IMG/VR virus record: IMGVR_UViG_3300028590_000093
Span: 1-22,433 of that record
Length of the DNA stretch: 22,433 nucleotides
Reading direction: 5' to 3' (one strand)
Origin: a virus
The notes below the pieces were generated by a model that saw only the letters and a program-made list of their open reading frames with translations, was not told the DNA's origin and ran no database searches. Shown one piece after another: positions 1,352 through 14,458 of this stretch. A program made the translations under genes and the position numbers. The stretch's first letter is position 1. Each line of letters begins with the position of its first letter.

Positions 1352-1367
1352 AACGCGATATCGAATT
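1352..1367 (-). promoter_or_regulatory. Degenerate copy of the regulon palindrome
   Basis: AACGCGATATCGAATT differs at three positions from the operator AATCTGATATCGAATT at 9516. It lies in the divergent gap between the minus-strand gene and the terminase gene. Read on the minus strand it runs straight into TTGTCG, the same arrangement of palindrome then -35 box seen at the four strong copies, but no convincing -10 box is visible at 17-18 bp. The assignment is weak. Confidence 0.35.
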
Positions 1368-1380
1368 TTTCGGGGCGCTT

Positions 1381-2055
1381 ATGAGTGGGACACAAGACAC
1401 GGGAGAGAGGATCGTTCCCGACGACGGCGAATCGGTTGAGATCGCAAAACTGAATCTCGACCAAAGCAACCGGCGTGCCTTGATCTTGCGCTATGCAATC
1501 GAGGGGCTTTCGATCCGCCAAATTGCCGCGCGTATCGGAGTTTCGAAGTCGCAAGTCGGCCGGGACTTTCAGGATCTTCATCGGGAATTCGCGGCGTACC
1601 GGAGGCAAACCTACGCCGAGTATGTCGACGCGGCGCTGGCGGAACTGGAATACATCCGGAGCGAGGCGGCGAAAGCGTGGGCCCGGTCGAAGCAACCGAC
1701 GTCGGTCAAGATCCGCGGCGCGAAGCAAGGGAAGATCGCCGGCGTCTCCGGGGCGTCCATTGCGACGGTTCACGAAAAGACGGTCGACCAAATCGGAGAT
1801 CCGCGGTTCCTCCGGGTGATGCTCGAATCCCTCCTCTCCCGGATGAAACTCCTCGATCTCCAAGTGCCGCGGCAGTTCATTCAGCAGCAGGACAAACAGG
1901 ACGACGGGGCGGAGGACGCGAAGACGGCCGCCGATCGTCGAGTGATGGAAAAGCTCTATGACATGCTCTCCGGATCAGGCGAAAGCGCTCCTCCGCAAAC
2001 TGGAGAGGGAGAACCCGGCGGAGGCTCTGCGGATCACGACGCGGCTCGCGCGTGA
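1381..2055 (+). CDS. terS: Probable terminase small subunit (helix-turn-helix)
   Basis: Small terminase subunits recognise the packaging site on concatemeric phage DNA and load the large subunit. This 224-residue protein has a helix-turn-helix at about residues 41-66 (EGLSIRQIAARIGVSKSQVG), then long helical stretches (about 70-100 and 135-165) suited to oligomerisation, and a low-complexity acidic/Gly-rich tail. The call rests on the HTH, the size and the position directly before, and overlapping by 98 bases, the large subunit gene. The open frame extends upstream to 1255, but ATG 1381 is the natural start: the upstream part overlaps the divergent gene and reads as noise. The ribosome site is weak (GGGG at 1372-1375). 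Family membership could not be checked, so another phage DNA-binding protein remains possible. Confidence 0.72.
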   Translation: MSGTQDTGERIVPDDGESVEIAKLNLDQSNRRALILRYAIEGLSIRQIAARIGVSKSQVGRDFQDLHREFAAYRRQTYAEYVDAALAELEYIRSEAAKAWARSKQPTSVKIRGAKQGKIAGVSGASIATVHEKTVDQIGDPRFLRVMLESLLSRMKLLDLQVPRQFIQQQDKQDDGAEDAKTAADRRVMEKLYDMLSGSGESAPPQTGEGEPGGGSADHDAARA

Positions 2056-3856
2056 CGGGAACCCGATTCCCCTGGTCGAGTTCCTGTGGGGGACGCTCGT
2101 CACCGACGAGGAGTTCCTAAGCGATCGGGAGGGGTTCGAGTCCGGCCGGCACGGTCGATATCTGATCCTCGATCCGTGGCAGATTCAGACGATCAAGGCG
2201 GTTTTCGATCCGACGGTTCACGATGTTCTCGTGAAGGGCAATGCCGGTTGCGGAAAGGGGGCCGTCTCGGGGATCGCCGTCGTCGCCTACTTCGTGGCGT
2301 TCGATGATGCGAAGGTCGTCATTACGCGCGACACGTGGGAGACGGCGGTCGCGAACGCCTATTCCGAAGTCGTGAAATGGTGGAAGAAAGCGCAGGAGAG
2401 TGGCGCCCCCATCAACGCGAAGGTCGGGGCGGACGAGATCCGGGCGACGGAGCAACATTTCATCCGGTGCGCCAACCCGGGGACGGATGAGGGGTTCTCC
2501 GGCTGTCACGGTCCGCACGTGCTGTTTTGGTTCGACGAGGCGACGGCGGTCCCGGACTCGCGTTGGAAGATGGCGGAGACGCAGGCGACGACGCTCCTCG
2601 CGACGGCGAACCCGCGGACGACGTCGGGCCAGTTCCGGAAATCGTTCTCCGTGGCTCAACCGAATCGGACGCAAAAAGTGTGGGCGTCGAACGGGTATCG
2701 GTGGCTCATCACGGTAGGCGGCCGGGACTGCGGGAACGTCCGGGCCCGGTGCCTCCTCAAGCCGGTCGCGCCGATTGGGGGGATCGAGCTAAAGGGGGTG
2801 GCGTACGTTCCAGGGCAGTTGATCCCGAAAGACGTCTACGATGAGAAGTGCCGGCCGATCGTCCCCGGTCAGACGACGCTCGACACGTTCTTGTCTCTCG
2901 ACGCTCATCCCGATCGCCGGTTCGCCGCGATCATGGCGCACGGGCATTTCCCCGACAGCGATCCGGAATACGCGATCTTTTACCGGGAGCGGGTGGACGC
3001 CGGGCAACGGAAGTGGAGGGCGTTCCGCCGGCTGGAGGAGATCGCGGCCGGGCAGCGGGGGCGAGATCCGAAACTCTGGTGGATCAAGCGCCGCCGGCCG
3101 TGGGCGATGCGGGCCCTCGAAAGAATCCTCCCGATCGAGGCGGGCGGGCTCGACATCGGGGGCTCATCTCAGGGGGACGATTCCGTTTTGACCTTGGGGG
3201 GATCTCGCGGCGTCCGCTCCCAATGGGAGATCAAAGAGCAGTCGTCGACGCGGATCGTCGATTGGCTGATCGAGGTTCTCCGCTCCCTAGGGATCGATCA
3301 TCACGGTTTCCCGATCGGGATGGACGCCGTCGGGGTGGGGCTCGGTGTCGTCTCGGTTGCGAGAGATGAGGGGTTCAACGTGATCGAGTGTTTCGGCTCG
3401 GCCGCCGCGGATGAGCCGAAGCTCTACGGCAACCGGCGGGCGGAGATGTTCGTCACGCTGGGGGACCGCATGAACCCCGGGGGGGCGTTCCCCTACGATC
3501 TGGCGAGCCGCAAGGGGCGCTCCCGGATCTTTGCTCTCCCCGACGGGGAAAACATCGTGGAGGAGTTCCTCGCTCACGAAAAGGTGCCGGGCTCGGGGGC
3601 GGAGCGGATTCTCGTCACGCCGAAGAATGACCGGGGGGACGGAAAGAACGCAAAGGGGAACGACGTCCGGAGCAAGATCGGCCGCTCCCCGGACCGGGCG
3701 GATTCGATCCGGTATATGTGGGAGGCGCTCGCGGTCGGGGCTACGTCGATGCGTCAGTGGATCAAGGCGGCAACGGCTGTCATGGGAGAGGATGATCCGC
3801 AGGTGGAAAATCTGATATCAAATTCGATTGACGAGGGCGGTTGGAATCCGATATAA
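1958..3856 (+). CDS. terL: Terminase large subunit (packaging ATPase/nuclease)
   Basis: This 632-residue protein is the motor that cuts concatemeric DNA and pumps it into the prohead through the portal. The N-terminal ATPase has a Walker A-type loop GNAGCGKGA (about 94-102), a Walker B strand with catalytic acid VLFWFDEA (188-195) and a coupling motif LLATANP (213-219). The C-terminal RNase H-like nuclease shows GLDIGG (D399), GMDAVG (D456) and DRADS (D579, D582), the usual spacing for three metal-binding acidic positions. The length is at the long end of the family. The gene overlaps the end of the small subunit gene, which suggests coupled translation; its own ribosome site is weak. Promoter A of the downstream block is embedded in its last codons, and its TAA stop lies inside the -10 box. 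The portal gene, which normally follows directly, is more than 11 kb away. Confidence 0.95.
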   Translation: MTCSPDQAKALLRKLERENPAEALRITTRLARDGNPIPLVEFLWGTLVTDEEFLSDREGFESGRHGRYLILDPWQIQTIKAVFDPTVHDVLVKGNAGCGKGAVSGIAVVAYFVAFDDAKVVITRDTWETAVANAYSEVVKWWKKAQESGAPINAKVGADEIRATEQHFIRCANPGTDEGFSGCHGPHVLFWFDEATAVPDSRWKMAETQATTLLATANPRTTSGQFRKSFSVAQPNRTQKVWASNGYRWLITVGGRDCGNVRARCLLKPVAPIGGIELKGVAYVPGQLIPKDVYDEKCRPIVPGQTTLDTFLSLDAHPDRRFAAIMAHGHFPDSDPEYAIFYRERVDAGQRKWRAFRRLEEIAAGQRGRDPKLWWIKRRRPWAMRALERILPIEAGGLDIGGSSQGDDSVLTLGGSRGVRSQWEIKEQSSTRIVDWLIEVLRSLGIDHHGFPIGMDAVGVGLGVVSVARDEGFNVIECFGSAAADEPKLYGNRRAEMFVTLGDRMNPGGAFPYDLASRKGRSRIFALPDGENIVEEFLAHEKVPGSGAERILVTPKNDRGDGKNAKGNDVRSKIGRSPDRADSIRYMWEALAVGATSMRQWIKAATAVMGEDDPQVENLISNSIDEGGWNPI

Positions 3857-3857
3857 A
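3809..3857 (+). promoter_or_regulatory. Promoter A with palindromic operator
   Basis: Operator AATCTGATATCAAATT (3809-3824; two positions off the perfect palindrome at 12472) is followed by -35 TTGACG (3828-3833), an 18-bp spacer and -10 TATAAA (3852-3857). The whole element sits inside the 3' end of the large terminase gene and drives the gene starting at 3927. The AT-rich palindrome stands out in GC-rich DNA and recurs at three other gene starts. Confidence 0.82.
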
Positions 3858-3897
3858 ATTCTGCGTCGCCTCGATCGGGGCGGCCGGCGGGTCGGGG

Positions 3898-3909
3898 GCC
3901 GAGCAATCC
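3898..3909 (+). promoter_or_regulatory. Conserved leader box, copy A
   Basis: GCCGAGCAATCC lies in the 5' leader 18-29 bases before ATG 3927 and directly before the ribosome site GGCGGAG. The same box recurs before the genes at 9624 and 12584 and, with changes at its 3' end, at 10414, always behind the palindromic promoters. Confidence 0.65.
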
Positions 3910-3926
3910 CGGCGGAGAGTTCTGCG

Positions 3927-4328
3927 ATGAGCATCGACACGGCTCTGATCCTGCGGATGATTCACCGGGCCCGGCTGGCGGCTCGGGAGGTCAATGTCAT
4001 TTGGGAGGGGACGAAGCTCCCGCGGCGGGTTCCGACACTCGTTCAGGTGATCGGCGCAAACGGGATCTCGAACCGGCAATCGGTGATGACGCCGCTCGAT
4101 GCGGCCGTTCAGATCGATCGGTTCCTCCCGGACGTGCCGCGCTGGCGGATGGTTGTTCGGGACGCCGATCGCGATGGCGTGTTTCGGGTTCTCTCGTTCG
4201 TGACGGAGGAGGAATACCGGGCCGCCGTCGAGCGCAACCCGTCGGCGGTTCAGTCAACGGAGATGTCAACGGAGGCGGAATTCCTCGGTTCGTGGCCGGA
4301 GCATTTCGGCGAGTTGTCTTGGGCGTGA
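3927..4328 (+). CDS. Hypothetical protein, first gene after promoter A
   Basis: This 133-residue protein is not recognised. The N-terminal half is helical and basic (MSIDTALILRMIHRARLAAREV), the middle has strand-like segments (about 72-95), and the C-terminal 30 residues are Glu/Ser-rich. It has no signal peptide, membrane segment or Cys motif. The frame is open upstream to 3828, but ATG 3927 is preferred because GGAG sits 9 bases upstream and the longer form would start inside the promoter. As the first gene after promoter A it should be made as soon as the operator is free. A 55-base gap with a weak GC-rich hairpin (about 4335-4359) separates it from the next gene. Confidence 0.75.
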   Translation: MSIDTALILRMIHRARLAAREVNVIWEGTKLPRRVPTLVQVIGANGISNRQSVMTPLDAAVQIDRFLPDVPRWRMVVRDADRDGVFRVLSFVTEEEYRAAVERNPSAVQSTEMSTEAEFLGSWPEHFGELSWA

Positions 4329-4383
4329 GTCCTGGGGCCCGGCCGGCAGTCGGTCGGGCTCCGTTTCCCTGGGAGGGAGTCGG

Positions 4384-4941
4384 GTGAAAGTGTTCATCAA
4401 CGGGGCGATTCGCCTCAACATGCAATCGCAGTTAGAGGAGTTCGCGAGCGATCCGGAGTCCGTCTCGACTCGGGAGGAGATCATCGACGCGGAGTTCCTC
4501 CTCACGTTCGTGGAGGGGCTCCCGGCGTTCGATTCGGTTGCGTCCTGGGGCGAGATCGAGGTTCCGGAGGATCTCGTTCCGTTGTTCTGTCAGTGGCTCG
4601 CCTACTGCGCGGACCACACTCATTTCATCAGCATGCGGGAAGGGGGGGTAGCTGTGGCGACGGTACACGTGGCGGGGATCTCGTTGACGATGGAGGGGGT
4701 CCGGGTGATTCAGCGGTGCGCCTTGTGCGGGTTCAAGCTGATCGACACGGATCTCCGAAAGGTGGCGATCCCGGAAGGGCAGGAGGCAAAGGTTCCGGCG
4801 TTCGCTCCCTACGATCTCGTTGAGGTCGAGGGGAACCGCATGTCGGTGATAGTGGCGGAGCCAAGCCGGGAGCCTGGGGCGAAGCCGGGCGATCGGAAGA
4901 TGCCTCCGGGATTCTGTCTCGCTCTGGTCGAGGGCGAGTAG
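4384..4941 (+). CDS. Hypothetical protein with a CxxC pair
   Basis: This 185-residue protein is not recognised. The acidic N-terminal half (about 1-70) is predicted helical. The central part has a C69/C75/H78/H80 cluster, and RCALCGF gives a C112-xx-C115 pair followed by strand-like segments, so a single metal site built from C69/C75 and C112/C115 is possible. The C-terminal 25 residues are Pro/Gly-rich and basic. The start is GTG 4384, with GGGAGGGA about 7 bases upstream. It is followed after two bases by the next gene, so the two are probably co-translated in the promoter A operon. The short gap before it holds two CCTGGG motifs. Confidence 0.75.
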   Translation: MKVFINGAIRLNMQSQLEEFASDPESVSTREEIIDAEFLLTFVEGLPAFDSVASWGEIEVPEDLVPLFCQWLAYCADHTHFISMREGGVAVATVHVAGISLTMEGVRVIQRCALCGFKLIDTDLRKVAIPEGQEAKVPAFAPYDLVEVEGNRMSVIVAEPSREPGAKPGDRKMPPGFCLALVEGE

Positions 4942-4943
4942 CC

Positions 4944-5207
4944 GTGGAGACGTTCGAGGAGTCCGTTCGCCGGCAGGAGCGAGAGTTGATCGAGCGGCTC
5001 CTCATCGGGTTTCGCCGCGCCGAGAAGATGGGGCAGTCGGAGAGGGCGCGGCGGTTCCGCGGCTCGCCGATCGCCGGGCTGTCGCGGACGCGGCTGGAGT
5101 TCTTCTCCCGGTGTCTCCGGCAGGCGCTCCGGCATCACGTGCAGGGGAAGTTCGAAATCGTTGATATCACAATGCGGGGGCTTTGCCGCTCGCTCGGGTT
5201 GGAATAG
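4944..5207 (+). CDS. Small basic hypothetical protein
   Basis: This 87-residue protein is not recognised. It is strongly basic and helical: residues 1-30 form an amphipathic helix (ESVRRQERELIERLLIGFRR) and the rest is Arg-rich, ending in FEIVDITMRGLCRSLGLE. The charge and size would suit a nucleic-acid-binding accessory protein, but no named fold is visible. The start is GTG 4944, two bases after the stop of the upstream gene. It lies immediately before the topoisomerase VI A-like gene (12-base gap), so the two products may act together. A GATATC at about 5164 lies inside the coding frame and lacks the promoter arrangement. Confidence 0.65.
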   Translation: METFEESVRRQERELIERLLIGFRRAEKMGQSERARRFRGSPIAGLSRTRLEFFSRCLRQALRHHVQGKFEIVDITMRGLCRSLGLE

Positions 5208-5219
5208 GGGGATTGCGAC

Positions 5220-6215
5220 GTGCCGAAAATTCGATATGAGAATCTGAATCTCAGTGCCGGCGTTCTCGCCGTCATAAAACAGGCGAACGAAATCATTGAG
5301 GAGTATGCCGAGCAAGGGTTCGATTTGACCCTCCGGCAACTCTACTATCAGTTCGTCGCGCGGGATCTCATCCCGAATGAGCAAAAGAGCTACAAGCGGT
5401 TGGGAGACATCGTCTCCAAGGGGCGGCGGGCCGGGCTGATCGATTGGGAGAGGATCGTCGATCGGACGCGGGAGCTACGCCGCCGGGCGACGTGGGAGAA
5501 CCCGCAGGAGATCATCGCCGCGGTTGCCCAACAGTTCCGCCTCGATCTGTGGGAGGATCAGGAGTATCGGGTCGAAGTGTGGATCGAGAAAGACGCGCTC
5601 CTGGGGGTGTTAGAGGCGGCGTGTCTCCCTCATCGTGTTCCCTACTTCTCTTGCCGCGGGTTCGGGTCCGACTCCGAAATGTGGGCGGCCGGGCAGCGGA
5701 TGAAGGTCTATCGTAGCGAGAAGAAAACTCCGATCGTTATCCATTTGGGGGATCATGACCCATCCGGGATCGTCATGAGCGAGGACATAGAGGGCCGGCT
5801 CGAACTGTTCTCCGGACGGCCTGTCGAGGTCCGCCGGATCGCTCTGAATATGGATCAGGTGAACGAGTTCAACCCTCCTCCGAATCCGGCGAAGGAAACC
5901 GACTCCCGCTTTGCCCGGTATCAGGAGGAGTTCGGGGACGAGTCTTGGGAACTCGACGCTCTCGATCCGACGACGATCTCGGATCTGATCGCCAGGGAGA
6001 TCCGCGGGCTCCGTGACAACGATTTGTGGGAGGAGGCGAAGCGGCGGGAGTTGCACCATAGAGACGACCTTACGACGGTCTCGACCGAATGGGAGGTCGC
6101 GCTGCAAGCCGCGTGCGATGCGTTCGACGAACGGGAGGAGGATCGCCGCTCGGAATACCGGAACGATCTGGAGGGCGACGACGTGGACACTGACAACGGG
6201 GACGATGAGGAATGA
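5220..6215 (+). CDS. Topoisomerase VI A / Spo11-like Toprim protein
   Basis: This 331-residue protein has the two-part layout of type IIB topoisomerase A subunits. A winged-helix part carries LTLRQLYYQFV (about 37-47), matching the R-x-x-YY signature in which one tyrosine (Y42 or Y43) attacks DNA in Topo VI A and Spo11. A Toprim domain carries VWIEKDAL (E123) and HLGDHDPSG (D178, D180), the usual Glu and Asp-x-Asp metal ligands. The final 30 residues are highly acidic. No B subunit (GHKL ATPase) is encoded nearby, resembling the stand-alone 'Mini-A' proteins described in mobile elements. It may nick, cleave or bind DNA in replication or recombination; activity is inferred, not shown. The start is GTG 5220 with AGGGGGA about 8 bases upstream. 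The next gene overlaps by ATGA. Confidence 0.8.
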   Translation: MPKIRYENLNLSAGVLAVIKQANEIIEEYAEQGFDLTLRQLYYQFVARDLIPNEQKSYKRLGDIVSKGRRAGLIDWERIVDRTRELRRRATWENPQEIIAAVAQQFRLDLWEDQEYRVEVWIEKDALLGVLEAACLPHRVPYFSCRGFGSDSEMWAAGQRMKVYRSEKKTPIVIHLGDHDPSGIVMSEDIEGRLELFSGRPVEVRRIALNMDQVNEFNPPPNPAKETDSRFARYQEEFGDESWELDALDPTTISDLIAREIRGLRDNDLWEEAKRRELHHRDDLTTVSTEWEVALQAACDAFDEREEDRRSEYRNDLEGDDVDTDNGDDEE

Positions 6216-6517
6216 AGCGTTCGAAGCTGATCCGGGAACTCCTCGCGCTTGCGGCGGCGTCGAGGTACTACAAGGTTTCCGTCCGGTCCGTCGGGCGGCG
6301 GGACGGAAATATCAACGTCGTCATGGTGTCGAACGCGATCATCTGGCCGCGGCCGCCGTCTCAGGTGACAGATTACGGGTTGCTCGATCGCGTGTCGGAG
6401 AGGGTTGTCGCAACCGTCGATTCGTTCGAAGCTGCCGAGAGGATCGCCGGCAAGATCGAGGCAGAGTGGGAAGCGATGCCGAAGGGGACCGCAGAAAAGG
6501 GGGTGGGGGAGTGTTGA
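6212..6517 (+). CDS. Small hypothetical protein
   Basis: This 101-residue protein is not recognised. It begins with a basic helix (MKRSKLIRELLALAAASRYY), has strand-like segments (YKVSVRSVGRRDGNINVVMVSN, about 20-42), then a helix (FEAAERIAGKIEAEWEAM). This looks like a small alpha/beta domain. Its ATG overlaps the stop of the Topo VI A-like gene (ATGA), so translation is probably coupled and the pair may be functionally linked. The following gene begins inside its last codons. Confidence 0.7.
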   Translation: MKRSKLIRELLALAAASRYYKVSVRSVGRRDGNINVVMVSNAIIWPRPPSQVTDYGLLDRVSERVVATVDSFEAAERIAGKIEAEWEAMPKGTAEKGVGEC

Positions 6518-6915
6518 GGTTTGCCAAGTTCAACAGCGATGATCGGGTCGGGGTGTTCGACGTCTGGTTCATCCCGGAGGAGATTCGCGTTCCGGTTCGT
6601 TCGGGCCCCGTCTCTCGACTCTCCCCGAACTCGTCCCGGCCGGTGAGAGCGTGGCGGATCAAGCTGGAGGCTCGTTTTCCCAATCCGGCGGGGGGATGGT
6701 TTCACCGGGAGTATCGTTGGGCCGCGCAGATGAAATGGAGGCCAACGGAGACTCACGTTCGGGAACTCATCAAGAGGGCAAAGCGATATCACAAAGAGGG
6801 GCGAGAGGAGGTTCCGTCGGATGGGACGCAAGAGGGGGCGAAAATGGGGCGGGCCGAAAGTCTGGTTCCGGTGCGAACGGGGTTGCGGCTGGCGAGGCCG
6901 GAGGGGGATTCATAG
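6511..6915 (+). CDS. Hypothetical protein
   Basis: This protein of about 134 residues is not recognised. From residue 3 the sequence (RFAKFNSDDRVGVFDVWFIP) has strand character, with Trp/Arg-rich stretches (WRIKLEARFPNP, FHREYRWAAQMKW) and a basic helix (HVRELIKRAKRYHKEGREE). The start is probably GTG 6511 or TTG 6514, behind a G-rich ribosome site and overlapping the end of the previous gene. The frame is open much further upstream, but there it is a shadow of the Topo VI A-like gene. Its last 95 bases overlap the zinc-ribbon gene that starts at 6821, and the C-terminal tail there is low in structure. Confidence 0.6.
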   Translation: MLRFAKFNSDDRVGVFDVWFIPEEIRVPVRSGPVSRLSPNSSRPVRAWRIKLEARFPNPAGGWFHREYRWAAQMKWRPTETHVRELIKRAKRYHKEGREEVPSDGTQEGAKMGRAESLVPVRTGLRLARPEGDS

Positions 6916-7057
6916 CGCGACGGCGTTCTCCGCCTGTCCGCGGTGTCTTGTGGCGAGTGTCGAACGGGAGAGATCGAGCGATGACGAAACGCGAACGGGC
7001 GCAGATCCGAGCGGCTCACCGGGCCCTCGCGACGGGGACGGCGGACGGAAAGGTTGA
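6821..7057 (+). CDS. Small zinc-ribbon protein overlapping both neighbours
   Basis: This 78-residue frame has a very basic start (MGRKRGRKWGG) and two knuckles, C18-xxx-C22 and C39-xx-C42 (FRCERGCGW and CPRCLVA), typical of a zinc ribbon that could bind nucleic acid. ATG 6821 has a perfect AGGAGG 9 bases upstream (6806-6811), strong evidence that it is translated. It overlaps the end of the previous gene by 95 bases and the start of the next by 77, so its C-terminal 30 residues (Gly/Asp/Arg-rich) are constrained by another frame and look unstructured. Either the gene is real and nested, or the neighbours' ends are misjudged; the four cysteines and the ribosome site favour a real gene. Confidence 0.6.
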   Translation: MGRKRGRKWGGPKVWFRCERGCGWRGRRGIHSATAFSACPRCLVASVERERSSDDETRTGADPSGSPGPRDGDGGRKG

Positions 7058-7328
7058 GGCGCTCGCGATCCTCGACCGGCTGAAGGATCGGGAGCCGGCC
7101 GGCGACGGGAACCTCCGCCTCCGGGTGTCGCTCTATGAGAAGCTGTGCGGGGGGAACGTCCTGATCGAGAACGTCGAGTCCCCCGGCCGCCGGCATCTGA
7201 AACTCTCGATCACGGAGATTGACTCCGCGACGTGTCTCCCGGTCGGTCGGGTGACACTCTACCTTGAAGAAATCCGGCGACTCGGCCGGGCTCTGGTCCG
7301 ATGGTCAACTAAGTTTTCGGAGGCATGA
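6981..7328 (+). CDS. Hypothetical protein
   Basis: This 115-residue protein is not recognised. The N-terminal half is helical and basic (MTKRERAQIRAAHRALATGT, then KVEALAILDRLKDREPAG); the C-terminal half has strand-like segments (HLKLSITEIDSATCLPVGRV) and ends in a helix. ATG 6981 is chosen because GGGAGAGA lies upstream and the natural-looking protein begins there; the longer open frame upstream is a shadow of other genes. It overlaps the zinc-ribbon frame by 77 bases at its start, and its stop overlaps the next gene's start. Confidence 0.68.
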   Translation: MTKRERAQIRAAHRALATGTADGKVEALAILDRLKDREPAGDGNLRLRVSLYEKLCGGNVLIENVESPGRRHLKLSITEIDSATCLPVGRVTLYLEEIRRLGRALVRWSTKFSEA

Positions 7329-7642
7329 TGAGAGCGGTTTCTGTGTACGTGGCGGACTATGATTTGAACGTCGTCCGCCGGCGAACGGTCAAGGCCCTCC
7401 CCGGGCCGGAGGAGGAATTTCAGTGGGTCGAGTTGGTGGAGGGGGAGGGCGACAATCTCGGCGGCCGCCGGCTCCATCGTGAGGGGCTCTCCTATCGGGT
7501 CTTTGACTCCTGGGGAGCGGCTCGCGCTCATCTGGTGAAGAAACGCGAGGACGACGTCGATCAGTTCCGCCAGAGTCTTGAGCGATCGTTGCTCAGGGCG
7601 ACGGAGGCGCTCGCCATTCCTCCGACGGAGCCGGCGGCGTAG
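7328..7642 (+). CDS. Small hypothetical protein upstream of the tail fibre
   Basis: This protein of about 104 residues is not recognised. It starts with strand-like segments (MRAVSVYVADYDLNVVRRRTVKAL), has an acidic turn-rich middle, and ends with a helix (AARAHLVKKREDDVDQFRQSLERSLL). Two adjacent ATGs exist at 7325 and 7328; the second is preferred because GGAGG (7319-7323) is too close to the first. The start overlaps the previous stop, so translation is probably coupled. The tail fibre gene follows after 24 bases. Confidence 0.68.
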   Translation: MRAVSVYVADYDLNVVRRRTVKALPGPEEEFQWVELVEGEGDNLGGRRLHREGLSYRVFDSWGAARAHLVKKREDDVDQFRQSLERSLLRATEALAIPPTEPAA

Positions 7643-7666
7643 CATCTCCCCGCGAGGGGGTGAGGG

Positions 7667-9070
7667 ATGCCGACGTTCAATCAGGTTCCGTACGGGTGGT
7701 TTCAGTCGGGCACGCGCTACAAGGGCGTAGGCTCGGGGTCGGGAACGGCCGGGGCTCCGGGGTCGAAGTGGCGGACCGGCTCCGGCGCTCCCTCGGACTC
7801 CCTGGGGGCGAACGATGATCTATACCTCGACACGGCGACGGGCAACGTTTACGTGAAGTCGGGGGGCGCCTACTCCCTCTCCGTCAACATCACGGGCCCG
7901 GCGGGCAGCAATGGCACGAATGGAACGGACGGGTCCGACGGAGCGGACGGACGGAGCGCGTATCAGGTTGCCGTGGACGACGGCGGGTTCGTCGGCGACG
8001 TGTCGGCGTGGCTCGCCTCTCTGGTGGGGCCGGCTGGAACGAACGGGACCAACGGCGTCGACGGGGCGACGTGGCGCAGCGGGAGCGGGGCTCCGGACAA
8101 CGGGACCGGCGTCAATGGCGACTACTATCTCCGGACGTCGAACGGAGACGTCTATCTCCGATCGGGCGGGACGTACACAGTAACCGCGAACCTGATGGGC
8201 CCGGCCGGGGCGAACGGCTCGAACGGGCTGGACGGTCTACAGATGTCCGGCCGGCTCACTCTCGAAACCGGGGTGGCGGTCTCGACGTCCGATCAGGTTG
8301 CGAAGTCGACGCTGTACTACACGCTTTACGACGGTTGCCGAATCACGATTTGGGATGGCTCGGCGTGGGTCACTCGAACGTTCCCGTCCGAACTCTCCCT
8401 CACGCTGGCGTCTCTGACGAGCGGGAAGAATTACGACGTTGTCGCCTACTGGACTGGCTCCGCGGTCGCAATCGATCTGATGCCGGCGTGGGCGAGCGAC
8501 ACGGGGCGGGCCAGCGGGACGGGCGTGGTCGTCTTCAAAGACGGGATTCTTGTCAACAACGCCTCATTCACCGGCGTCCGGAACGGGGCGTCGATCGGGG
8601 CGAATCAAGGAACGGTTGTCGGGACGATCCGTACGACATCGACGAGCGGGACGGAGGATTCGCTGACAAAGCGGTTCGTCTGCAATTGGCTGAATCCCGT
8701 TCCGCGGATCATGTACAAGACGGACGCGACGCTCCATACGCTCACGCCGGTTACGGTCCGCGGATGGAATGGGGCGACTCACGCGCTCGAATGGATTCAG
8801 ACGAGTCCGCGGGATGGCGTGCTGTTGACGCTCACCGGGGCTCTAACGTCCAGCACGACGGGATCGCAGGGGGCCCGTCTGGCGTTGGGGGCGAATACGA
8901 CAACGATGAGCAAGACGATCGATATCAGCGGTTACACGTTCGGCGGCGGGGTGTCTCTGGTTCAGCATCCCAACAACGGTTGGAAAGCGTATTACGTGGT
9001 CGAGTCGGCAACCGGGAACGGGACGACGACGTTTTATTACTATGAAATCGAGGCGGTGATTCAGGCATGA
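7667..9070 (+). CDS. Collagen-like tail fibre / adhesin
   Basis: This 467-residue protein is probably a host-recognition fibre. Three collagen-like Gly-X-Y segments (GPAGSNGTNGTDGSDGADG at 78-96, GPAGTNGTNGVDG at 121-133, GPAGANGSNGLDG at 178-190) would form trimeric shafts. They are separated by a repeated module of about 46 residues (35-80 and 136-181) with the pattern WRxGSGAP, YL, VYxxSGGxY, GPAG, common in phage fibres. The segment AYQVAVDDGGFVGDVSAWLASLVGPAG also matches the usual fibre linker pattern. Residues 195-467 are beta-rich, Thr/Ser/Gly-rich and probably form the tip or receptor-binding part. GAGGGGGTGAGGG lies just before ATG 7667. Its position between terminase and portal, far from any tail gene, is unusual. 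The next gene overlaps by ATGA. Confidence 0.88.
   Translation: MPTFNQVPYGWFQSGTRYKGVGSGSGTAGAPGSKWRTGSGAPSDSLGANDDLYLDTATGNVYVKSGGAYSLSVNITGPAGSNGTNGTDGSDGADGRSAYQVAVDDGGFVGDVSAWLASLVGPAGTNGTNGVDGATWRSGSGAPDNGTGVNGDYYLRTSNGDVYLRSGGTYTVTANLMGPAGANGSNGLDGLQMSGRLTLETGVAVSTSDQVAKSTLYYTLYDGCRITIWDGSAWVTRTFPSELSLTLASLTSGKNYDVVAYWTGSAVAIDLMPAWASDTGRASGTGVVVFKDGILVNNASFTGVRNGASIGANQGTVVGTIRTTSTSGTEDSLTKRFVCNWLNPVPRIMYKTDATLHTLTPVTVRGWNGATHALEWIQTSPRDGVLLTLTGALTSSTTGSQGARLALGANTTTMSKTIDISGYTFGGGVSLVQHPNNGWKAYYVVESATGNGTTTFYYYEIEAVIQA
7769..8209 (+). repeat. Two diverged copies of a fibre module
   Basis: Bases 7769-7906 and 8072-8209 encode two aligned 46-residue modules. Both start with W-R-x-G-S-G-A-P, contain Y-L and V-Y-x-x-S-G-G-x-Y, and end in G-P-A-G before a collagen-like run. 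The copies have diverged at DNA level, so this is an old duplication within the fibre gene. Confidence 0.8.
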
Positions 9071-9522
9071 TTGACATCGAAGCGGCGAAGCGGTTGGCGG
9101 TTCCCGTTCTGGCGTTGATGGATCGCCTCCGGGCGGACGGAATCCCCGTGAGCGGGGTCTCCCGGCCGTCGGAGGAGGAGCCGCTCGGCCGGATCGATTT
9201 TCCGTTCGAGGCGACGGACCAGCAGCGGGACGCGGCGAACGCTCTCCTCGCCTCCTGGGATTGGACGCCGGCCGATCCCGCCTTGTCCGCCCCGAACGCC
9301 TCTTGCCGTCTGGCTCTGATCGAGTTCGGGATCTTTCCGTGGGCCGTCGATGCCGCAATCGCCGCGATCGAGGACGACGCGAAGCGGGCCCGCGTGCAAA
9401 CGATGTGGGAATACTTCGATCGGTTCCGGTCGGACGATTCCGTGTTGCTGGAGATGGCGGCTCTCCTGGGGATCACGGAGGAGGCGCTCCCGGTGATGTT
9501 CGCGCGTGCCGCTCAAATCTGA
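9067..9522 (+). CDS. Small protein paired with the tail fibre
   Basis: This 151-residue protein has a helical N-terminus (MIDIEAAKRLAVPVLALMDRL), a linker and a helical C-terminal part with the pattern W-x-Y-F-D-R-F-R-S-D-D-S-V-L-L-E-M-A-A-L-L-G-I-T (about 119-142). Similar short proteins with an LG-[IL]-T near the C-terminus are often found right after tail fibre genes in phages and prophages; their function is not known, and some are treated as fibre accessories. The ATG overlaps the fibre gene stop, so the two are probably made together. Promoter B begins within its last codons. Confidence 0.7.
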   Translation: MIDIEAAKRLAVPVLALMDRLRADGIPVSGVSRPSEEEPLGRIDFPFEATDQQRDAANALLASWDWTPADPALSAPNASCRLALIEFGIFPWAVDAAIAAIEDDAKRARVQTMWEYFDRFRSDDSVLLEMAALLGITEEALPVMFARAAQI

Positions 9523-9564
9523 TATCGAATTAGTATTGACGGTCCCGGCGGCCGTCGATAGATT
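9516..9564 (+). promoter_or_regulatory. Promoter B with palindromic operator
   Basis: Operator AATCTGATATCGAATT (9516-9531) is followed by -35 TTGACG (9536-9541), a 17-bp spacer and -10 TAGATT (9559-9564). It overlaps the end of the preceding gene and drives the gene at 9624. Confidence 0.85.
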
Positions 9565-9599
9565 GAGCGTGTCGGCAATCGCCGGCAACGGCGAACGGA

Positions 9600-9611
9600 G
9601 CCGAGCAATCC
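9600..9611 (+). promoter_or_regulatory. Conserved leader box, copy B
   Basis: GCCGAGCAATCC in the leader of the gene at 9624, running directly into the Shine-Dalgarno site CGGAGG. Identical to copies A and D. Confidence 0.7.
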
Positions 9612-9623
9612 GGAGGCGACATC

Positions 9624-10298
9624 ATGACGGCGATCGAAACTCCCGAAATTCTGACGCGGAACGGAATCGAGGTTGTCGAGACGACGGTCGGTCCGCGGGC
9701 AAAGGTGACGTGCGATCGGTGCGGCGGAACCGGACGTTTCTCCCATTGCGAACAGTGGGGATCGCGGTGTTTCGATTGTGACGTAGCCTCCGGCGGGAAG
9801 AACATCGGGTTTCAGTTCATCCCGGTTGAAAAGGCGGTTAAGCGCCTCAAACGGAGCGAGGCGATTGCGCGGCGGGTGGCGAAGAATGCGGCCGAGCGGG
9901 AGGAGCGGCTCCGGGCCCTCGATCTCCGGATCGACGTCGATCTGGCGGACGTTCAGGCGGCCGGGGTGGAGTTCGCTCGCCGGCAGGAGGAGGCTCGGCG
10001 GGCCGCTCAGAAGTTCATCGGAAAGCCGGGCGAGCGGATGACGTTCGTTGCTCGCCTCTCGTTCGTCACGGACTTTCAGTCGAGCTATGGGGTTCGCGTT
10101 CTCTGCCGGTTCGACGCCGACGGTTCCGCCGTGGTGTGGTGGACGACGTGGAGTGCGTTCCCTGGGGATCTCCGAAAGGGGGATCTCGTTGAGGTCACGG
10201 CAACGATCAAGGCGCACGGGGAGTACAAGGGGAACAAGCAAACCGAAGTCTCTCGGCTGAAACTGGTCCGCGTCGTCGAGGCGGCGCCGGAGGAGTGA
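9624..10298 (+). CDS. Zinc-ribbon plus OB-fold-like nucleic-acid-binding protein
   Basis: This 224-residue protein has three parts. Residues 30-52 hold a DnaJ-like zinc ribbon (C30-xx-C33 GGTGRF, then C49-xx-C52). Residues about 70-135 form a long charged helix or coiled coil rich in Arg/Glu/Ala. Residues 140-218 look like a single OB-fold-type beta barrel (strands around FVARLSFVTDF, YGVRVLCRFDA, VVWWTT and GDLVEVTATIKAHGEYKGNKQTEV), a pattern seen in phage proteins that bind single-stranded DNA. It is probably a DNA-binding replication or recombination protein; the OB assignment is by pattern, not search. It is alone between promoters B and C, so its expression is set by its own operator. 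SD GGAGG lies 8 bases before ATG 9624. Confidence 0.72.
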   Translation: MTAIETPEILTRNGIEVVETTVGPRAKVTCDRCGGTGRFSHCEQWGSRCFDCDVASGGKNIGFQFIPVEKAVKRLKRSEAIARRVAKNAAEREERLRALDLRIDVDLADVQAAGVEFARRQEEARRAAQKFIGKPGERMTFVARLSFVTDFQSSYGVRVLCRFDADGSAVVWWTTWSAFPGDLRKGDLVEVTATIKAHGEYKGNKQTEVSRLKLVRVVEAAPEE

Positions 10299-10347
10299 AA
10301 TCTGATATCGGATTTCTGTTGACGATCTCCGGCGTGGCCGATATCTT
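10299..10347 (+). promoter_or_regulatory. Promoter C with palindromic operator
   Basis: Operator AATCTGATATCGGATT (10299-10314) begins right at the stop of the upstream gene, followed by -35 TTGACG (10319-10324), a 17-bp spacer and -10 TATCTT (10342-10347). It drives the gene at 10414 and the run of genes to 12470. Confidence 0.87.
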
Positions 10348-10385
10348 CTGACGTGTCGGGGTTCACTCGACGACGGCGAACCCCG

Positions 10386-10397
10386 GCCGAGCAACGG
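10386..10397 (+). promoter_or_regulatory. Leader box, copy C, with a hairpin before it
   Basis: GCCGAGCAACGG matches the other boxes in its first nine bases. Just upstream GGGGTTC (about 10358-10364) can pair with GAACCCC (about 10378-10384). The box leads into the ribosome site GGGGAGGGA before ATG 10414. The other three leaders do not preserve this exact stem. Confidence 0.55.
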
Positions 10398-10413
10398 GGA
10401 GGGAGTTCAGGAA

Positions 10414-10974
10414 ATGGCAAAACACACTCATACGGGCGAGTGTCAGATTTGTTGCCGCCGGCAAGCTGTTCTCGTTCGAGGCGGCCGGATCGCGAAACAC
10501 GGCTACACGGTGGACGGGTATTTCAACGGCACGTGTCACGGGGCCGGGCATCCTCCGTTCGAGCATTCGTGCGACGCGACGAAAGCGGCGATCAAGGGGA
10601 CGGAGGATCAGATCGCCAAGATTCGGAAAGGGATCGAGAACCTCCGGGCGAATCGGAAAGATCGAGGCGCTCAGGCGTGGTTCTTTGTCCGTTCGTCGTT
10701 CCGGTCCAAGTTTTCGTATTGGGTCGAGATCCGCGTCGATCGCTCCGGAGCGGCGACGTTTGGCGTCGAGGTCGGAGATCCGAGTAAGCGGCACAACCTC
10801 TACGTGAGTCCTGGGGCGCCGGTCGAGGAGATCGCGAAGGATCTCGACGAGGAGTATTGCAACGGTCTCGCGCGGCAGATCGCCGGGCTGACTCTGTGGC
10901 TCAAAGATGCGAAAGCGAGGGTTGCGACATGGGCTCCGAAGGATCTGACGCCGGTAACTCTGGCCGGGATTTGA
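10414..10974 (+). CDS. Cys/His-rich zinc-finger protein
   Basis: This 186-residue protein opens with a Cys/His-rich module (C10-xx-C13, H29-G-Y, C41-H42, H46, H51, C53) that probably binds zinc. I have an impression of related proteins with the pattern C-x-x-C, G-G-R-I-x-x-H-G-Y and C-x-G in GC-rich bacteria and phages, of unknown function. Residues 54-80 form a Lys-rich helix, and 88-125 have strand character (WFFVRSSFRSKFSYWVEIRVDR). The C-terminal part is helical. It is the first gene after promoter C, with GGGAGG upstream of ATG 10414. The next gene starts within its last 46 bases. Confidence 0.72.
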   Translation: MAKHTHTGECQICCRRQAVLVRGGRIAKHGYTVDGYFNGTCHGAGHPPFEHSCDATKAAIKGTEDQIAKIRKGIENLRANRKDRGAQAWFFVRSSFRSKFSYWVEIRVDRSGAATFGVEVGDPSKRHNLYVSPGAPVEEIAKDLDEEYCNGLARQIAGLTLWLKDAKARVATWAPKDLTPVTLAGI

Positions 10975-11285
10975 TCGTTCAGGCATATCCGAAGCTGGAA
11001 GCCGTCCCCGTGGAACGTTGCCCGTTCTGCGGGGGCGAGACGGAATATCGCATTCAGTCCGGGGCAACGTTCTGCGTCCCGGACTGCGGCGGTTGGAAGC
11101 CGGCCGACGAGCCGTGGCAACAGGAGATGGCGTTAGAAGATCCCCGGCTCGACAACGATCCGGAGGCGTTGAGGATGCGGGCGGCGTACGCGGCCGCTCT
11201 CGAACAATCAGGGGGTGACGTATGGGGGGCGTGGGAGATCCTGGGGATAGTCAAGCCGACTCCCCGGCCGAAGATCGAGGGTTGA
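10929..11285 (+). CDS. Small zinc-ribbon protein
   Basis: This 118-residue protein carries a four-Cys ribbon (C31-PF-C34 and C49-VPD-C53) in the arrangement CPFCGG, a beta-hairpin, then C-x-x-x-C, typical of short phage zinc ribbons, and a helical C-terminal part (residues 68-105). The function is unknown; a role in binding nucleic acid or a protein partner is inferred. ATG 10929, inside the end of the previous gene, is chosen because GAGGG lies about 7 bases before it; the frame further upstream is a shadow of that gene. It overlaps the next gene by 64 bases. Confidence 0.7.
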   Translation: MGSEGSDAGNSGRDLIVQAYPKLEAVPVERCPFCGGETEYRIQSGATFCVPDCGGWKPADEPWQQEMALEDPRLDNDPEALRMRAAYAAALEQSGGDVWGAWEILGIVKPTPRPKIEG

Positions 11286-11644
11286 AGCGGGATGAGTGTT
11301 TCTCCCGCCTCGCGGCGTTCGTGGACATGACGTGCCGGCTCTGCGGGGTCGAGGAGAATCAGACGATCGAGCGGATTTGCTATGAGGTCGCGGCGCCTGT
11401 CGAGTCTGATCCCGGGCAACCCGGTTGGCGTCTCGCGGTCTTGCTCGCGTGCCGGAAGTCGGTCGATCTGATCGAACAGTTCGAGGCGGCCGAGCGAGAT
11501 CCGCCGGCGCCCCCCCCTCCGCCGCCGATCCCCCGTTGCCCGAACTGCGGGTCGGAGTGCCGGCTCGGGTTCCCTGTTACCGCGTGCGCGGCGTGCGGAT
11601 ACCGTTGGCGTCCGCCGCCGACAGTCCCCCCGATGAGGAATTGA
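11222..11644 (+). CDS. Protein with polyproline linker and C-terminal zinc ribbon
   Basis: This 140-residue frame has a helical N-terminal domain with several Cys (C26, C38, C41, C53), a linker of eight prolines in ten residues (about 94-104), then a zinc ribbon C106-PN-C109 with C122-AA-C125. The ribbon is convincing; the role is unknown. The start is uncertain: ATG 11222 has a G-rich site upstream but overlaps the previous gene by 64 bases, and TTG 11282, overlapping the previous stop, is the alternative. With the shorter start the protein still holds all the Cys residues listed. Confidence 0.65.
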   Translation: MGGVGDPGDSQADSPAEDRGLKRDECFSRLAAFVDMTCRLCGVEENQTIERICYEVAAPVESDPGQPGWRLAVLLACRKSVDLIEQFEAAERDPPAPPPPPPIPRCPNCGSECRLGFPVTACAACGYRWRPPPTVPPMRN

Positions 11645-11648
11645 GACG

Positions 11649-12035
11649 ATGGAGAAAGACGAAAAGCCGGCGTCGATGCGATGGATCTCGATTCCCCTCC
11701 GCGTCGAAAACGTCGTGGTCGAGGAGAGGATTCACGTTGAGGCCCGGTTCCTGGGGCTCCATCTGTGGGGCGGGGAGATCCGCCTACACGTGATCGAGCC
11801 GGGGGAGAAATACGGTTGGTTTCCGTGTCCCGTGTACGTTCTCCGGTCGGACTTGAAGTGCGATCCGGTGTTCCTTCACGGAAGCCGGTTCCGGCTCCTG
11901 GGGAGCGTTCAGTCGGACGTAGGCGGCCGATGCGTGGTTCGACACGTGTTCCTCGACGGGGATCAGTGGTCGAGGAATCAGGGGGTCCAATGCGTGTTAG
12001 GATCTCTCGAAGTCAATTTGAATCCGGAGGGTTGA
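11649..12035 (+). CDS. Hypothetical beta-rich protein
   Basis: This 128-residue protein is not recognised. Alternating hydrophobic stretches (MRWISIPLRVENVVVEERIHVEARF, IRLHVIEPG, RFRLLGSV) point to a mainly beta fold. It has no signal, membrane segment or metal motif. ATG 11649 has GAGGA about 9 bases upstream and follows the previous gene after four bases; the next gene follows after three. It belongs to the promoter C operon. Confidence 0.7.
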   Translation: MEKDEKPASMRWISIPLRVENVVVEERIHVEARFLGLHLWGGEIRLHVIEPGEKYGWFPCPVYVLRSDLKCDPVFLHGSRFRLLGSVQSDVGGRCVVRHVFLDGDQWSRNQGVQCVLGSLEVNLNPEG

Positions 12036-12038
12036 GAA

Positions 12039-12470
12039 GTGGTCAACGTTAAGCATCTCGGGGACGTCGTTCCCCGCGTCTATCTGCGGGCCCCTGGGGT
12101 CTCGGTTCCCGTGATGCTCACCGGGGCGGTCCGGGAGATCGAGGTCCGCGGGGACGTCCGGGAACGCCGGGCTCTGACGCTCACGGTCTACCGTTGCCAC
12201 GACGGGGAGTTCGCCGTCAACGTGGCCGCGTCGTCCGAGTGGAAGGGGGAGGAACAAGGGCATCAAGTCGCCTACTTCGGGCGGCCGGCGCAGATCGCCG
12301 CCGCGCTGTCGATGCACAACCCCTTGCCGGAGGGGTGGGGGTTCCCGCCTCACGCGAAATACGCGAAGCAACAGGAGGCGCTCCAAGCGGAGATCGGCCG
12401 CGTGTTCGCCGACGCGGCGTTCCTGATGATGATCGAGATGGAGTGGGCCGATCCCGCTCCCGTCGGTTAG
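12039..12470 (+). CDS. Hypothetical protein, last gene before promoter D
   Basis: This 143-residue protein is not recognised. The first 65 residues look beta-rich (MVNVKHLGDVVPRVYLRAPG, then REIEVRGDV, RRALTLTVYR), and residues 80-140 are helical (YAKQQEALQAEIGRVFADAAFLMMIEMEW). The start is GTG 12039 with GGAGGG about 9 bases upstream. It closes the promoter C operon, and operator D starts one base after its stop. Confidence 0.7.
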   Translation: MVNVKHLGDVVPRVYLRAPGVSVPVMLTGAVREIEVRGDVRERRALTLTVYRCHDGEFAVNVAASSEWKGEEQGHQVAYFGRPAQIAAALSMHNPLPEGWGFPPHAKYAKQQEALQAEIGRVFADAAFLMMIEMEWADPAPVG

Positions 12471-12471
12471 A

Positions 12472-12520
12472 AATCTGATATCAGATTGTGTTGACACGCG
12501 GAGCGGGTGGTCGATATCTT
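12472..12520 (+). promoter_or_regulatory. Promoter D with perfect palindromic operator
   Basis: AATCTGATATCAGATT (12472-12487) is a perfect 16-bp palindrome, followed by -35 TTGACA (12491-12496), an 18-bp spacer and -10 TATCTT (12515-12520). It is the best-matching member of the set and is probably the strongest. It drives the operon from 12584 to 15222. Confidence 0.9.
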
Positions 12521-12557
12521 CTCCCGTGTCGACACACGTCGACGACGGCGCACCGGA

Positions 12558-12569
12558 GCCGAGCAATCC
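12558..12569 (+). promoter_or_regulatory. Conserved leader box, copy D
   Basis: GCCGAGCAATCC, identical to copies A and B, runs directly into the Shine-Dalgarno site GGGAGG before ATG 12584. A short inverted repeat GTCGAC/GTCGAC separated by four bases lies upstream in the same leader. Confidence 0.7.
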
Positions 12570-12583
12570 GGGAGGATGGACAG

Positions 12584-13045
12584 ATGGCCGACAAGACTTG
12601 GAACGTGATCGGGGTTGATCGGGTCGCTCGCAAAGTCGTCGTGTACGCATGCGAGAACAAGCCGCAACAACGGCAGATGCTCGCGGCTCTCCTGGGGAGC
12701 GGGTGGCAGGCTCTCGCCTCCGAAGCAAAGGTGACGATCGAAGACACGATTGCCCGTCTCCGGGAGGAGTGGGCGGAGGCGCCGATCGAGATCGGGGACG
12801 CGGCCGATGTTCTGGAGATCGCCGCTCGTCCGACGCTGCAAAGTCTGACGAAGGAACTCACGGCGTTCTCGACGTGGTTCGAGTTCGCGGAAGCGATGCA
12901 CGCCGGGTATGTTCCGACGTTCATGCTCACGCCGGGCAAGTCTCAGGCGACGCTCGCGAAGAATGATAAGGTCCGGGATCTGGCTCGGCGCGTCGCCGAG
13001 TTGGGATTCAAGGTTCACAAGCCGGCCGGGCCGATGCCGTGGTAA
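12584..13045 (+). CDS. Hypothetical protein, first gene after promoter D
   Basis: This 153-residue protein is not recognised. The N-terminus looks like a small alpha/beta unit (WNVIGVDRVARKVVVYACEN), followed by charged helices (TIEDTIARLREEWAEAPIEI, LQSLTKELTAFSTWFEFAEAM) and a basic C-terminus. ATG 12584 is chosen over an upstream start in the same frame because GGGAGG lies 8 bases before it and the longer form would begin within the promoter. As the first gene of the operon with the best promoter, it should be the most highly expressed product of the inserted block. Confidence 0.75.
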   Translation: MADKTWNVIGVDRVARKVVVYACENKPQQRQMLAALLGSGWQALASEAKVTIEDTIARLREEWAEAPIEIGDAADVLEIAARPTLQSLTKELTAFSTWFEFAEAMHAGYVPTFMLTPGKSQATLAKNDKVRDLARRVAELGFKVHKPAGPMPW

Positions 13046-13057
13046 AGGGGGTGGGGA

Positions 13058-13474
13058 ATGGACGGGGTTCCGTCGATGGTATTCGTGAGCGAGCGGATCG
13101 CGAGGAATGTCCGCTCGCTCGGTGTCACGCTGGAGGAGGCGGCCGCGGCGTTCCGCGGGGCCGGGGTAAACGCCGAGCGGCTCTCCGCGAAACTGGCGGA
13201 TCTCAACTCGATCCCGGTCGAGACGGTGCCGGACTTCACGCGGCCGAAGGTGAAACAGTCCCGGCTCGTCTCGGCGTGCGGGTTCACCGAATACGATCCG
13301 GAGGACGCCGATTGGGCGGTTCCGGCGGGGCTCGCCAGATGGGAGACGGTCGAGGTCGAATGCGACGTCGTCTATCTGATCGATCCGGGGATGTTTCAGA
13401 TCGGGGCCGGGTTCGATCCGTCGTTCGGGGTGAAGTCGATCATGAGGAACCCGGCTCCCTGGGAGTTGCCGTGA
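13058..13474 (+). CDS. Hypothetical protein
   Basis: This 138-residue protein is not recognised. The N-terminal half is helical (VFVSERIARNVRSLGVTLEEAAAAFRGAG, then LSAKLADL); the C-terminal half looks beta-rich (WETVEVECDVVYLIDPGMFQIGAGF). It has no membrane segment or metal motif. ATG 13058 has a G-rich ribosome site. Its stop overlaps the GTG of the next gene. A competing frame from 13039 overlaps it but reads as Arg/Gly-rich noise before 13471. Confidence 0.72.
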   Translation: MDGVPSMVFVSERIARNVRSLGVTLEEAAAAFRGAGVNAERLSAKLADLNSIPVETVPDFTRPKVKQSRLVSACGFTEYDPEDADWAVPAGLARWETVEVECDVVYLIDPGMFQIGAGFDPSFGVKSIMRNPAPWELP

Positions 13475-13818
13475 GCCGTCCGCGTCGTCCGCCGATGGAG
13501 GAGTTCCTCCGGCAAGTCGCGTCCCTCCTCCTCGCGGTGGGGTGGACGGACGACGGGCGGACGCAGACGGAGACGGTCCGCATCCCGACGACGCGCTCCC
13601 CGGTGTTCGGCGGGGCCGGCGGGGAGATCCGGACGTTCGGCGGCCGGCGGCGGTTCAAGCGTGGCGAGGAGAGGGTGACGATCGGGGCCCGGTCGATCGC
13701 GTGGTTCCGCGTCGGGGACCGGGGCCGGTTCGTCGAGATGATCGCAGTTCGGAAAACGGTCGAGGCGGTCGAGGCCCCGGAGTTCGGGCCCGTGTTCCGT
13801 CCGGCGAAGGGGGAGTGA
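13471..13818 (+). CDS. Small basic hypothetical protein
   Basis: This protein of about 115 residues is not recognised. It begins with GTG 13471, overlapping the previous stop (GTGA). It has a short basic start (MSRPRRPPMEEF), a helix, a Gly/Arg-rich loop region (about 48-70) and strand-like segments (VTIGARSIAWFRVGDRGRFVEMIAV). Its stop overlaps the start of the next gene (TGATG), so the run 13058-15222 forms a tightly coupled translation series. Confidence 0.65.
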   Translation: MSRPRRPPMEEFLRQVASLLLAVGWTDDGRTQTETVRIPTTRSPVFGGAGGEIRTFGGRRRFKRGEERVTIGARSIAWFRVGDRGRFVEMIAVRKTVEAVEAPEFGPVFRPAKGE

Positions 13819-14204
13819 TGAATTTCGACATGACGCGGCCGTGTGACAATTGCCCGTTCCGGACGGACGTGAAACCGTTCATCGGGGCGAGCCGGGCGAT
13901 CGAGATCGTTGGCGGTTTGGATGGGTGTTTCCCATGCCACAAAACGACGAAGTTCGATCAGGATGAGGCCGGGCCGCAGCACGTTCCGCACGATGACGAG
14001 CAGCATTGCGCCGGGGCTCTCATCATGCAGCTAAAAGAGGGGTGGCTCGGCCAGATGGGGCGGATCGCCGAGCGGACCGGGTGGGACTCGGGGGCGATGG
14101 ATCTCGGCTCTCCCGTGTACGAATCCCGGGAGGAGTTCATCGCCGCGCATGTCGAGGCGGAGGAGGAGGCGAAGCGCCTCCGGAAAGGTGGCGATCGGAA
14201 ATGA
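13818..14204 (+). CDS. Cys-rich small protein (DUF6283-like pattern)
   Basis: This 128-residue protein has a Cys/His cluster: C9-DN-C12-PF, C37-FP-C40-H41, and H63-C64-AGA. The order CxxCPF(R), an acidic or helical spacer, CxxCH, then HCAGA resembles small phage and actinobacterial proteins grouped as DUF6283 or similar, which probably bind zinc or an iron-sulfur cluster; the exact family is a guess. The C-terminal third is a charged helix (EEFIAAHVEAEEEAKRLRKG). It overlaps the previous gene by one base and the next by ATGA. Confidence 0.7.
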   Translation: MNFDMTRPCDNCPFRTDVKPFIGASRAIEIVGGLDGCFPCHKTTKFDQDEAGPQHVPHDDEQHCAGALIMQLKEGWLGQMGRIAERTGWDSGAMDLGSPVYESREEFIAAHVEAEEEAKRLRKGGDRK

Positions 14205-14458
14205 TTCAGTCCATGCGGCCGGCGGGGTTTCACCGGGTCCATCTGGTTCGGTTTCTTGAGGGCGGGACGACGGAGGTTCTCGAAACCTTTTTCGAGTCCC
14301 CGGCTCACGCATTCGTGGCGATCCTCGCCTACAACAACGACGACAATTGCGAGGGGCTCTTGGCTCCGTGCCGGTGTGATCGAGTGGCAACGTTCGATCC
14401 GCCGGCGGACCAGATTTGGCCGAAGTGTGCGGTACTGAAACAGGAGGGCGAGGGGTGA
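14201..14458 (+). CDS. Small hypothetical protein
   Basis: This 85-residue protein is not recognised. It looks like a small alpha/beta unit (FHRVHLVRFLEGGTTEVLETFFESPAHAFVAILAY) followed by a Cys-containing segment (C49, C57, C59, C76). ATG 14201 overlaps the previous stop, and its own stop overlaps the GTG of the winged-helix/DUF4326 gene. It could be a partner of either neighbour. Confidence 0.68.
   Translation: MIQSMRPAGFHRVHLVRFLEGGTTEVLETFFESPAHAFVAILAYNNDDNCEGLLAPCRCDRVATFDPPADQIWPKCAVLKQEGEG

Follow-up and report, generated by a model that had tools for sequence, protein, structure and literature searches.

Four predicted promoters in a viral DNA fragment of 22,433 nucleotides (IMG/VR record IMGVR_UViG_3300028590_000093, positions 1 to 22,433; hereafter the window) carried the same three elements. 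These were a 16-bp palindrome (dyad), a sigma-70-type core promoter, and a leader of about 60 nt that pairs into two hairpins. All four units were restricted to one block between the terminase and portal genes, and they are named P3809, P9516, P10299, and P12472 after the first base of their dyads. We give about an even chance to a reading in which the four elements act as operators of a single regulon specific to the phage, bound by a dimeric phage regulator, likely a repressor, and equipped with shared leaders.

Dyads and promoter geometry

The earlier note had described four 16-bp elements, each followed by a -35 box, a spacer, and a -10 box. Every element, box, and spacer length agreed exactly with the sequence (Table 1). 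The consensus AATYYGATATCRRATT was built from these four sites, and it matched the window four times exactly, once with 1 mismatch (3845), and twice with 2 mismatches (1352 and 5228), of which only the three extra sites give independent support. Simulated sequences of the same dinucleotide make-up contained 0.025 sites at 2 mismatches and 0 at fewer, and no surplus over expectation was seen in the window at 3 or 4 mismatches. Furthermore, AATCTGATATC at up to 2 mismatches gave 15 matches compared to 2.56 expected, a count reached in none of 100 shuffles.

The dyad pairs were complete at 12472 (8 of 8), and numbered 7 of 8 at 3809 and 10299 and 6 of 8 at 9516, the last being read from the sequence. 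All seven sites were confined to positions 1352-12487, and the window scan detected none in the portal, capsid, or later genes up to 22433. The site at 5228 may partly reflect protein coding, as relatives of the topoisomerase-like gene begin with a similar KIxY motif.

Table 1. Coordinates of the operator-like sites, core promoters, leaders, and gene clusters in the window
Feature	Position	Strand	Remarks
Operator palindrome of P3809	3809..3824	+	AATCTGATATCAAATT; within 3' end of large terminase gene
Operator palindrome of P9516	9516..9531	+	AATCTGATATCGAATT
Operator palindrome of P10299	10299..10314	+	AATCTGATATCGGATT
Operator palindrome of P12472	12472..12487	+	AATCTGATATCAGATT; perfect dyad
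Second operator-like site	3845..3860	+	AATCCGATATAAAATT; 1 mismatch to consensus; covers P3809 -10 box
Weaker operator-like site	1352..1367	.	AACGCGATATCGAATT; 2 mismatches; gap between minus-strand gene 824-1291 and small-terminase-like gene (start 1381)
Weaker operator-like site	5228..5243	.	AATTCGATATGAGAAT; 2 mismatches; start of topoisomerase-like gene 5220-6215
P3809 core promoter	3828..3857	+	TTGACG-18-TATAAA
P9516 core promoter	9536..9564	+	TTGACG-17-TAGATT
P10299 core promoter	10319..10347	+	TTGACG-17-TATCTT
P12472 core promoter	12491..12520	+	TTGACA-18-TATCTT
Structured leader of P3809	3862..3926	+	Hairpin 1, hairpin 2 with loop GCCGAGCAA, Shine-Dalgarno sequence; ATG 3927
Structured leader of P9516	9566..9623	+	ATG 9624
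Structured leader of P10299	10350..10413	+	ATG 10414
Structured leader of P12472	12523..12583	+	ATG 12584
Gene cluster after P3809	3927..9522	+	Small genes without known function, topoisomerase-like protein (5220-6215), collagen-like protein (7667-9070)
Single gene after P9516	9624..10298	+	phrog_2319 / phrog_4095, function not known
Gene cluster after P10299	10414..12470	+	Genes without known function
Gene cluster after P12472	12584..15222	+	Genes without known function; final one with DUF4326

At all four promoters, the dyad was followed by a gap of 3-4 bp, TTGAC(G/A), a spacer of 17-18 bp, and the -10 box. This places the dyad at about -55 to -40. The GATA of the -10 region began 41 bases after the dyad start in every case, with gap and spacer compensating a 1-bp shift of the -35 box. 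Such constancy would be expected by chance in about 7% of cases if gap and spacer varied independently, and is therefore suggestive. A sigma-28-like reading of the YCGATA motif was ruled out, since the -35 box is TTGAC.

Identity among the four copies was 88-94% in the dyad, compared to 8-46% in the core spacers, 21-36% in the 60 bases upstream, and 22-29% in the downstream coding stretch. The shared elements have thus been kept between copies whose spacers and flanks are hardly more alike than random sequence, so they are under selection and not merely recent copies. The proposal of the earlier note, that regulator-binding operators are joined to sigma-70-type promoters in one block, is at the level of sequence comparison well supported by this conservation against diverged spacers, by the dyad symmetry, by the fixed geometry, and by the absence of the sites elsewhere. 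Two features had been missed there: the two-hairpin leader, and the additional operator-like site that covers the -10 box of P3809.

A two-hairpin leader at each unit

Alignments showed that the leader, common to all four units, extends from the predicted transcription start to the start codon. Hairpin 1 consists of CGU and 6 pairs with a 1-nt bulge close to its base. Hairpin 2 encloses the invariant loop GCCGAGCAA; the 3' side of its stem runs up to the Shine-Dalgarno sequence. The same loop sequence also occurs in coding DNA at 5307, where it has no stem.

Across the four leaders, 94.5% of cells were paired compared to 75.6% in shuffles, and 7 of 14 pairs were altered on both sides compared to 2.2 in shuffles; in both tests, none of 500 shuffles was as high. 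When the partners were slid by 1-3 columns, pairing fell to 21-64%, a control that leans towards structure because the structure was derived from the same four sequences, which are a small sample. Shuffle tests on single leaders gave p = 0.052, 0.013, 0.007, and 0.009 for hairpin 2 and p = 0.06, 0.013, 0.026, and 0.007 for hairpin 1. A covariance model of the leader scored 68-77 bits on the four leaders, as it must by construction, and at most 12.8 bits elsewhere in the window. No Rfam family matched the window at its gathering score.

Since the leader lies at the 5' end of the transcript and against the ribosome site, its position suggests a role in the control of mRNA stability or translation. 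The put RNA antiterminator of phage HK022 is likewise a two-hairpin RNA that stands at the very start of phage transcripts and at more than one promoter. However, contact of hairpin 2 with the Shine-Dalgarno sequence in the present leader suggests that it acts in translation or stability. A more speculative reading, which we regard as rather unlikely, is that the leader represents a new class of cis-acting phage RNA. In this case the two hairpins with the invariant GCCGAGCAA loop, possibly folded into a compact pseudoknot (loop GCC with upstream GGC), would either confer put-like resistance to termination or be bound by a phage protein for translation control of the four clusters, in addition to operator control at the DNA level.

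A separate long hairpin was observed at 19508-19541, just upstream of the major capsid gene; its 14-bp stem is GC-rich, its loop reads GAGCAA, and AATTGCTTTT follows. It was ruled out as a fifth leader, being terminator-like and scoring 7.9 bits by the covariance model. It resembles a terminator or attenuator placed after the protease gene and ahead of the capsid gene.

Proposed repression and its alternatives

In the proposed regulon, the AATYYGATATCRRATT dyad at the four sigma-70-type promoters would be recognised by a DNA-binding dimer, whose gene probably lies elsewhere in the phage genome, outside the 22-kb fragment. At P3809, the dimer would also bind over the -10 box through the site at 3845. 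The bound regulator would most likely hold the promoters off by hindering RNA polymerase. Upon relief of repression, the four clusters between terminase and portal would be transcribed together, and each transcript would open with the same leader, which probably tunes mRNA stability or translation start alike for all four. We infer a dimer from the dyad symmetry, and a phage-encoded protein because the sampled host phylum lacks the dyad site. Repression is more likely than activation because the -35 boxes are near consensus (TTGACG/TTGACA) and a second site covers the P3809 -10 box; near-consensus -35 boxes suggest promoters that may need no activator. The sites also lie next to promoter elements at several promoters, which is a feature of phage repressor operators.

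Several points weigh against this regulon. The earlier note had placed the whole block under one dimeric regulator, which is plausible, and no gene for such a regulator was found in the window. The control unit was seen in no relative. For simple repression, a dyad centre near -47.5 is not the most frequent position. Moreover, the full second site is present at P3809 only, and the other three promoters keep just YCGATA, possibly as part of the promoter alone.

A possible but doubtful alternative is a phage activator that would use the dyad as its binding site just upstream of the -35 box, recruit RNA polymerase, and turn the block on at one stage of infection. The dyad adjoins the -35 box at all four promoters and keeps its distance to the -10 box despite the 1-bp shift between them, and the -10 boxes other than TATAAA match just 4 of 6 positions; both observations would fit an activator. 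However, the -35 boxes match 5 or 6 of 6 positions, which is unusual where an activator is needed. Activators are usually centred at -41.5 and -61.5, and the dyad centre is out of phase with these positions. The further site over a -10 box also speaks for a repressor rather than an activator.

A regulator of the host, exploited by the phage, is quite improbable as the protein that binds the dyad. Regulators of the apparent host phylum, Planctomycetota, are poorly known, and the lack of a phage regulator gene in the window would agree with a host protein. However, the dyad followed by TTGAC occurred in 0 of 392 Planctomycetota genomes, and the stricter pattern of the whole unit had no match in genome_contigs (84,980 species genomes).

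We place similarly low confidence in the idea that the element is an UP-like element touched by the alpha subunit of RNA polymerase, with no dedicated regulator. Its position at -55 to -40 is the usual one for UP elements, and it is AT-rich within DNA of 64% GC. However, the element shows dyad symmetry and invariant G/C positions instead of A-tracts, and additional copies lie over a -10 box and at places where no fitting promoter exists. That the entire unit is a recently copied promoter cassette, alike by descent and not by function, is very improbable: operator, promoter, and leader do occur together in all four cases, but the near-random identity of spacers and flanks beside persisting elements, and the compensatory variation of the leader stems, largely refute it.

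Probable host, apparent accessory block, and known systems

Near-full-length relatives of the large terminase, with 39-42% identity, were found in 9 of 392 Planctomycetota genomes. In the phylum reached via an Acidobacteria locus, 297 genomes gave weak partial relatives only. The best locus, the planctomycete prophage G398, contained homologs in order of the capsid (35%), protease (42%), Mu-F-like (38%), and portal (29%) proteins. Capsid relatives of 31-37% were present in three further genomes from the order of G398 or from the class Phycisphaerae. Because the terminase and the ordered head-gene relatives lie in Planctomycetota prophages, the host very probably belongs to this phylum. Terminase, capsid, and portal used as single-protein queries returned no relatives from IMG/VR.

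The earlier note had proposed looking in relatives. The head-gene relatives in Planctomycetota kept neither the palindromes nor, with confidence, any of the block genes, and this outcome is a negative one only. The unit was also not found in 170 genomes of the best relative's order or at about 200 other loci. These searches, and those of IMG/VR, genome_contigs, and the 392 Planctomycetota genomes, require rather similar sequence, and near-identical records may be missing from the collections, so that absence means that no close relative was seen, nothing more.

Candidates from broader searches were rejected. The exact dyad with TTGAC matched IMG/VR 5 times, in AT-rich contigs that shared one apparently coding stretch and had no unit, and these matches were attributed to chance. 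The leader pattern gave 33 IMG/VR matches and the -10/start pattern gave 21, none with such a dyad or promoter. Covariance-model matches in six Planctomycetota genomes (27-31 bits) did not reach half of what the four units scored and were rejected as GC-rich chance matches.

The distance from terminase to portal was 11.4 kb in the window (block 3857-15275), compared to about 1 kb in G398. Relative to the related prophages, the operator-bearing block is an additional segment and apparently an accessory region. Relatives of its topoisomerase-like gene (5220-6215; phrog_6247, E 1.5e-108), with 50-60% identity, occur across many phyla in both phages and prophages. The gene is widely exchanged and of no use for tracing the control unit, because the loci examined share no second window gene and carry no unit. 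The collagen-like repeat protein and the product of the small gene after it (phrog_14311/phrog_6034; together 7667-9522) may correspond to a tail fibre and its helper within the block. The DUF4326 protein (14455-15222) has an apparent winged-helix N-terminus, not confirmed, and is a possible DNA-binding protein of the block. Over the window (1-22433), CCTGGGG occurred 26 times on the + strand, in all three frames, and 0 times on the - strand, compared to 1.8 expected, and CCTGGG occurred 36 and 0 times, respectively. Such an oriented motif could be Chi-like or related to packaging; the planctomycete prophage relative G768 lacked the CCTGGGG bias (23 vs 29).

Among known systems, the ESAS/SAS promoter-leader repeats of Cluster K mycobacteriophages (TM4, Adephagia) were compared with the units (PMC3203893, PMC11373665). 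Adephagia contains seven motifs of 46-47 bp, with SigA-like hexamers 17-18 bp apart, imperfect inverted repeats, and a conserved sequence at the start codon (PMC3203893, PMC11373665). Repression through the inverted repeats was proposed for the ESAS promoters, by a regulator not known to the authors (PMC11373665). The present units share with this system a multi-copy sigma-70-type promoter with a 17-18 bp spacer, adjoining inverted repeats, a conserved leader, non-structural genes, and proposed repression. However, ESAS has arms of 15-17 bp placed 12-14 bp apart, whereas here a single 16-bp dyad is present, with a second site of the same consensus 36 bp downstream at one promoter only. SAS is a 13-bp GGGATAGGAGCCC near the start codon, in contrast to the 60-nt two-hairpin leader; the four leaders read GGCGGAGAG, CCGGAGGCGAC, GGGGAGGGAG, and CCGGGAGGATGG before the start codon, and GGGATAGGAGCCC occurred in none. 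Sequences and hosts are unrelated. By layout, ESAS/SAS is the closest known analogue, but the units lack both the SAS sequence and the spaced arms and do not belong to it.

In Cluster A mycobacteriophages such as L5, stoperators and operators are asymmetric sites to which a monomer binds, and they act in ending elongation at many places (PMC9283540). They resemble the present sites in that many copies of one repressor site are spread over a phage genome. However, stoperators are widespread away from promoters, whereas here the consensus is symmetric and the four strong sites all lie at promoters. Dyads are also found in the Streptomyces phage phiC31, whose repressor binds conserved inverted repeats of about 17 bp that lie close to phage promoters in the early region. 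The present units differ from them in sequence, host, and leader.

To our knowledge, gene control in phages of Planctomycetota is almost unexplored. The four units are a real regulon signature, joined by an RNA element, in a phage group that has received little study, and they give a precise operator, promoter, and leader that could serve to fish out the regulator. Furthermore, the comparison with Cluster K suggests that unrelated phages have arrived at the same layout, in which a repeated promoter stands between an operator and a conserved leader at the ribosome site.

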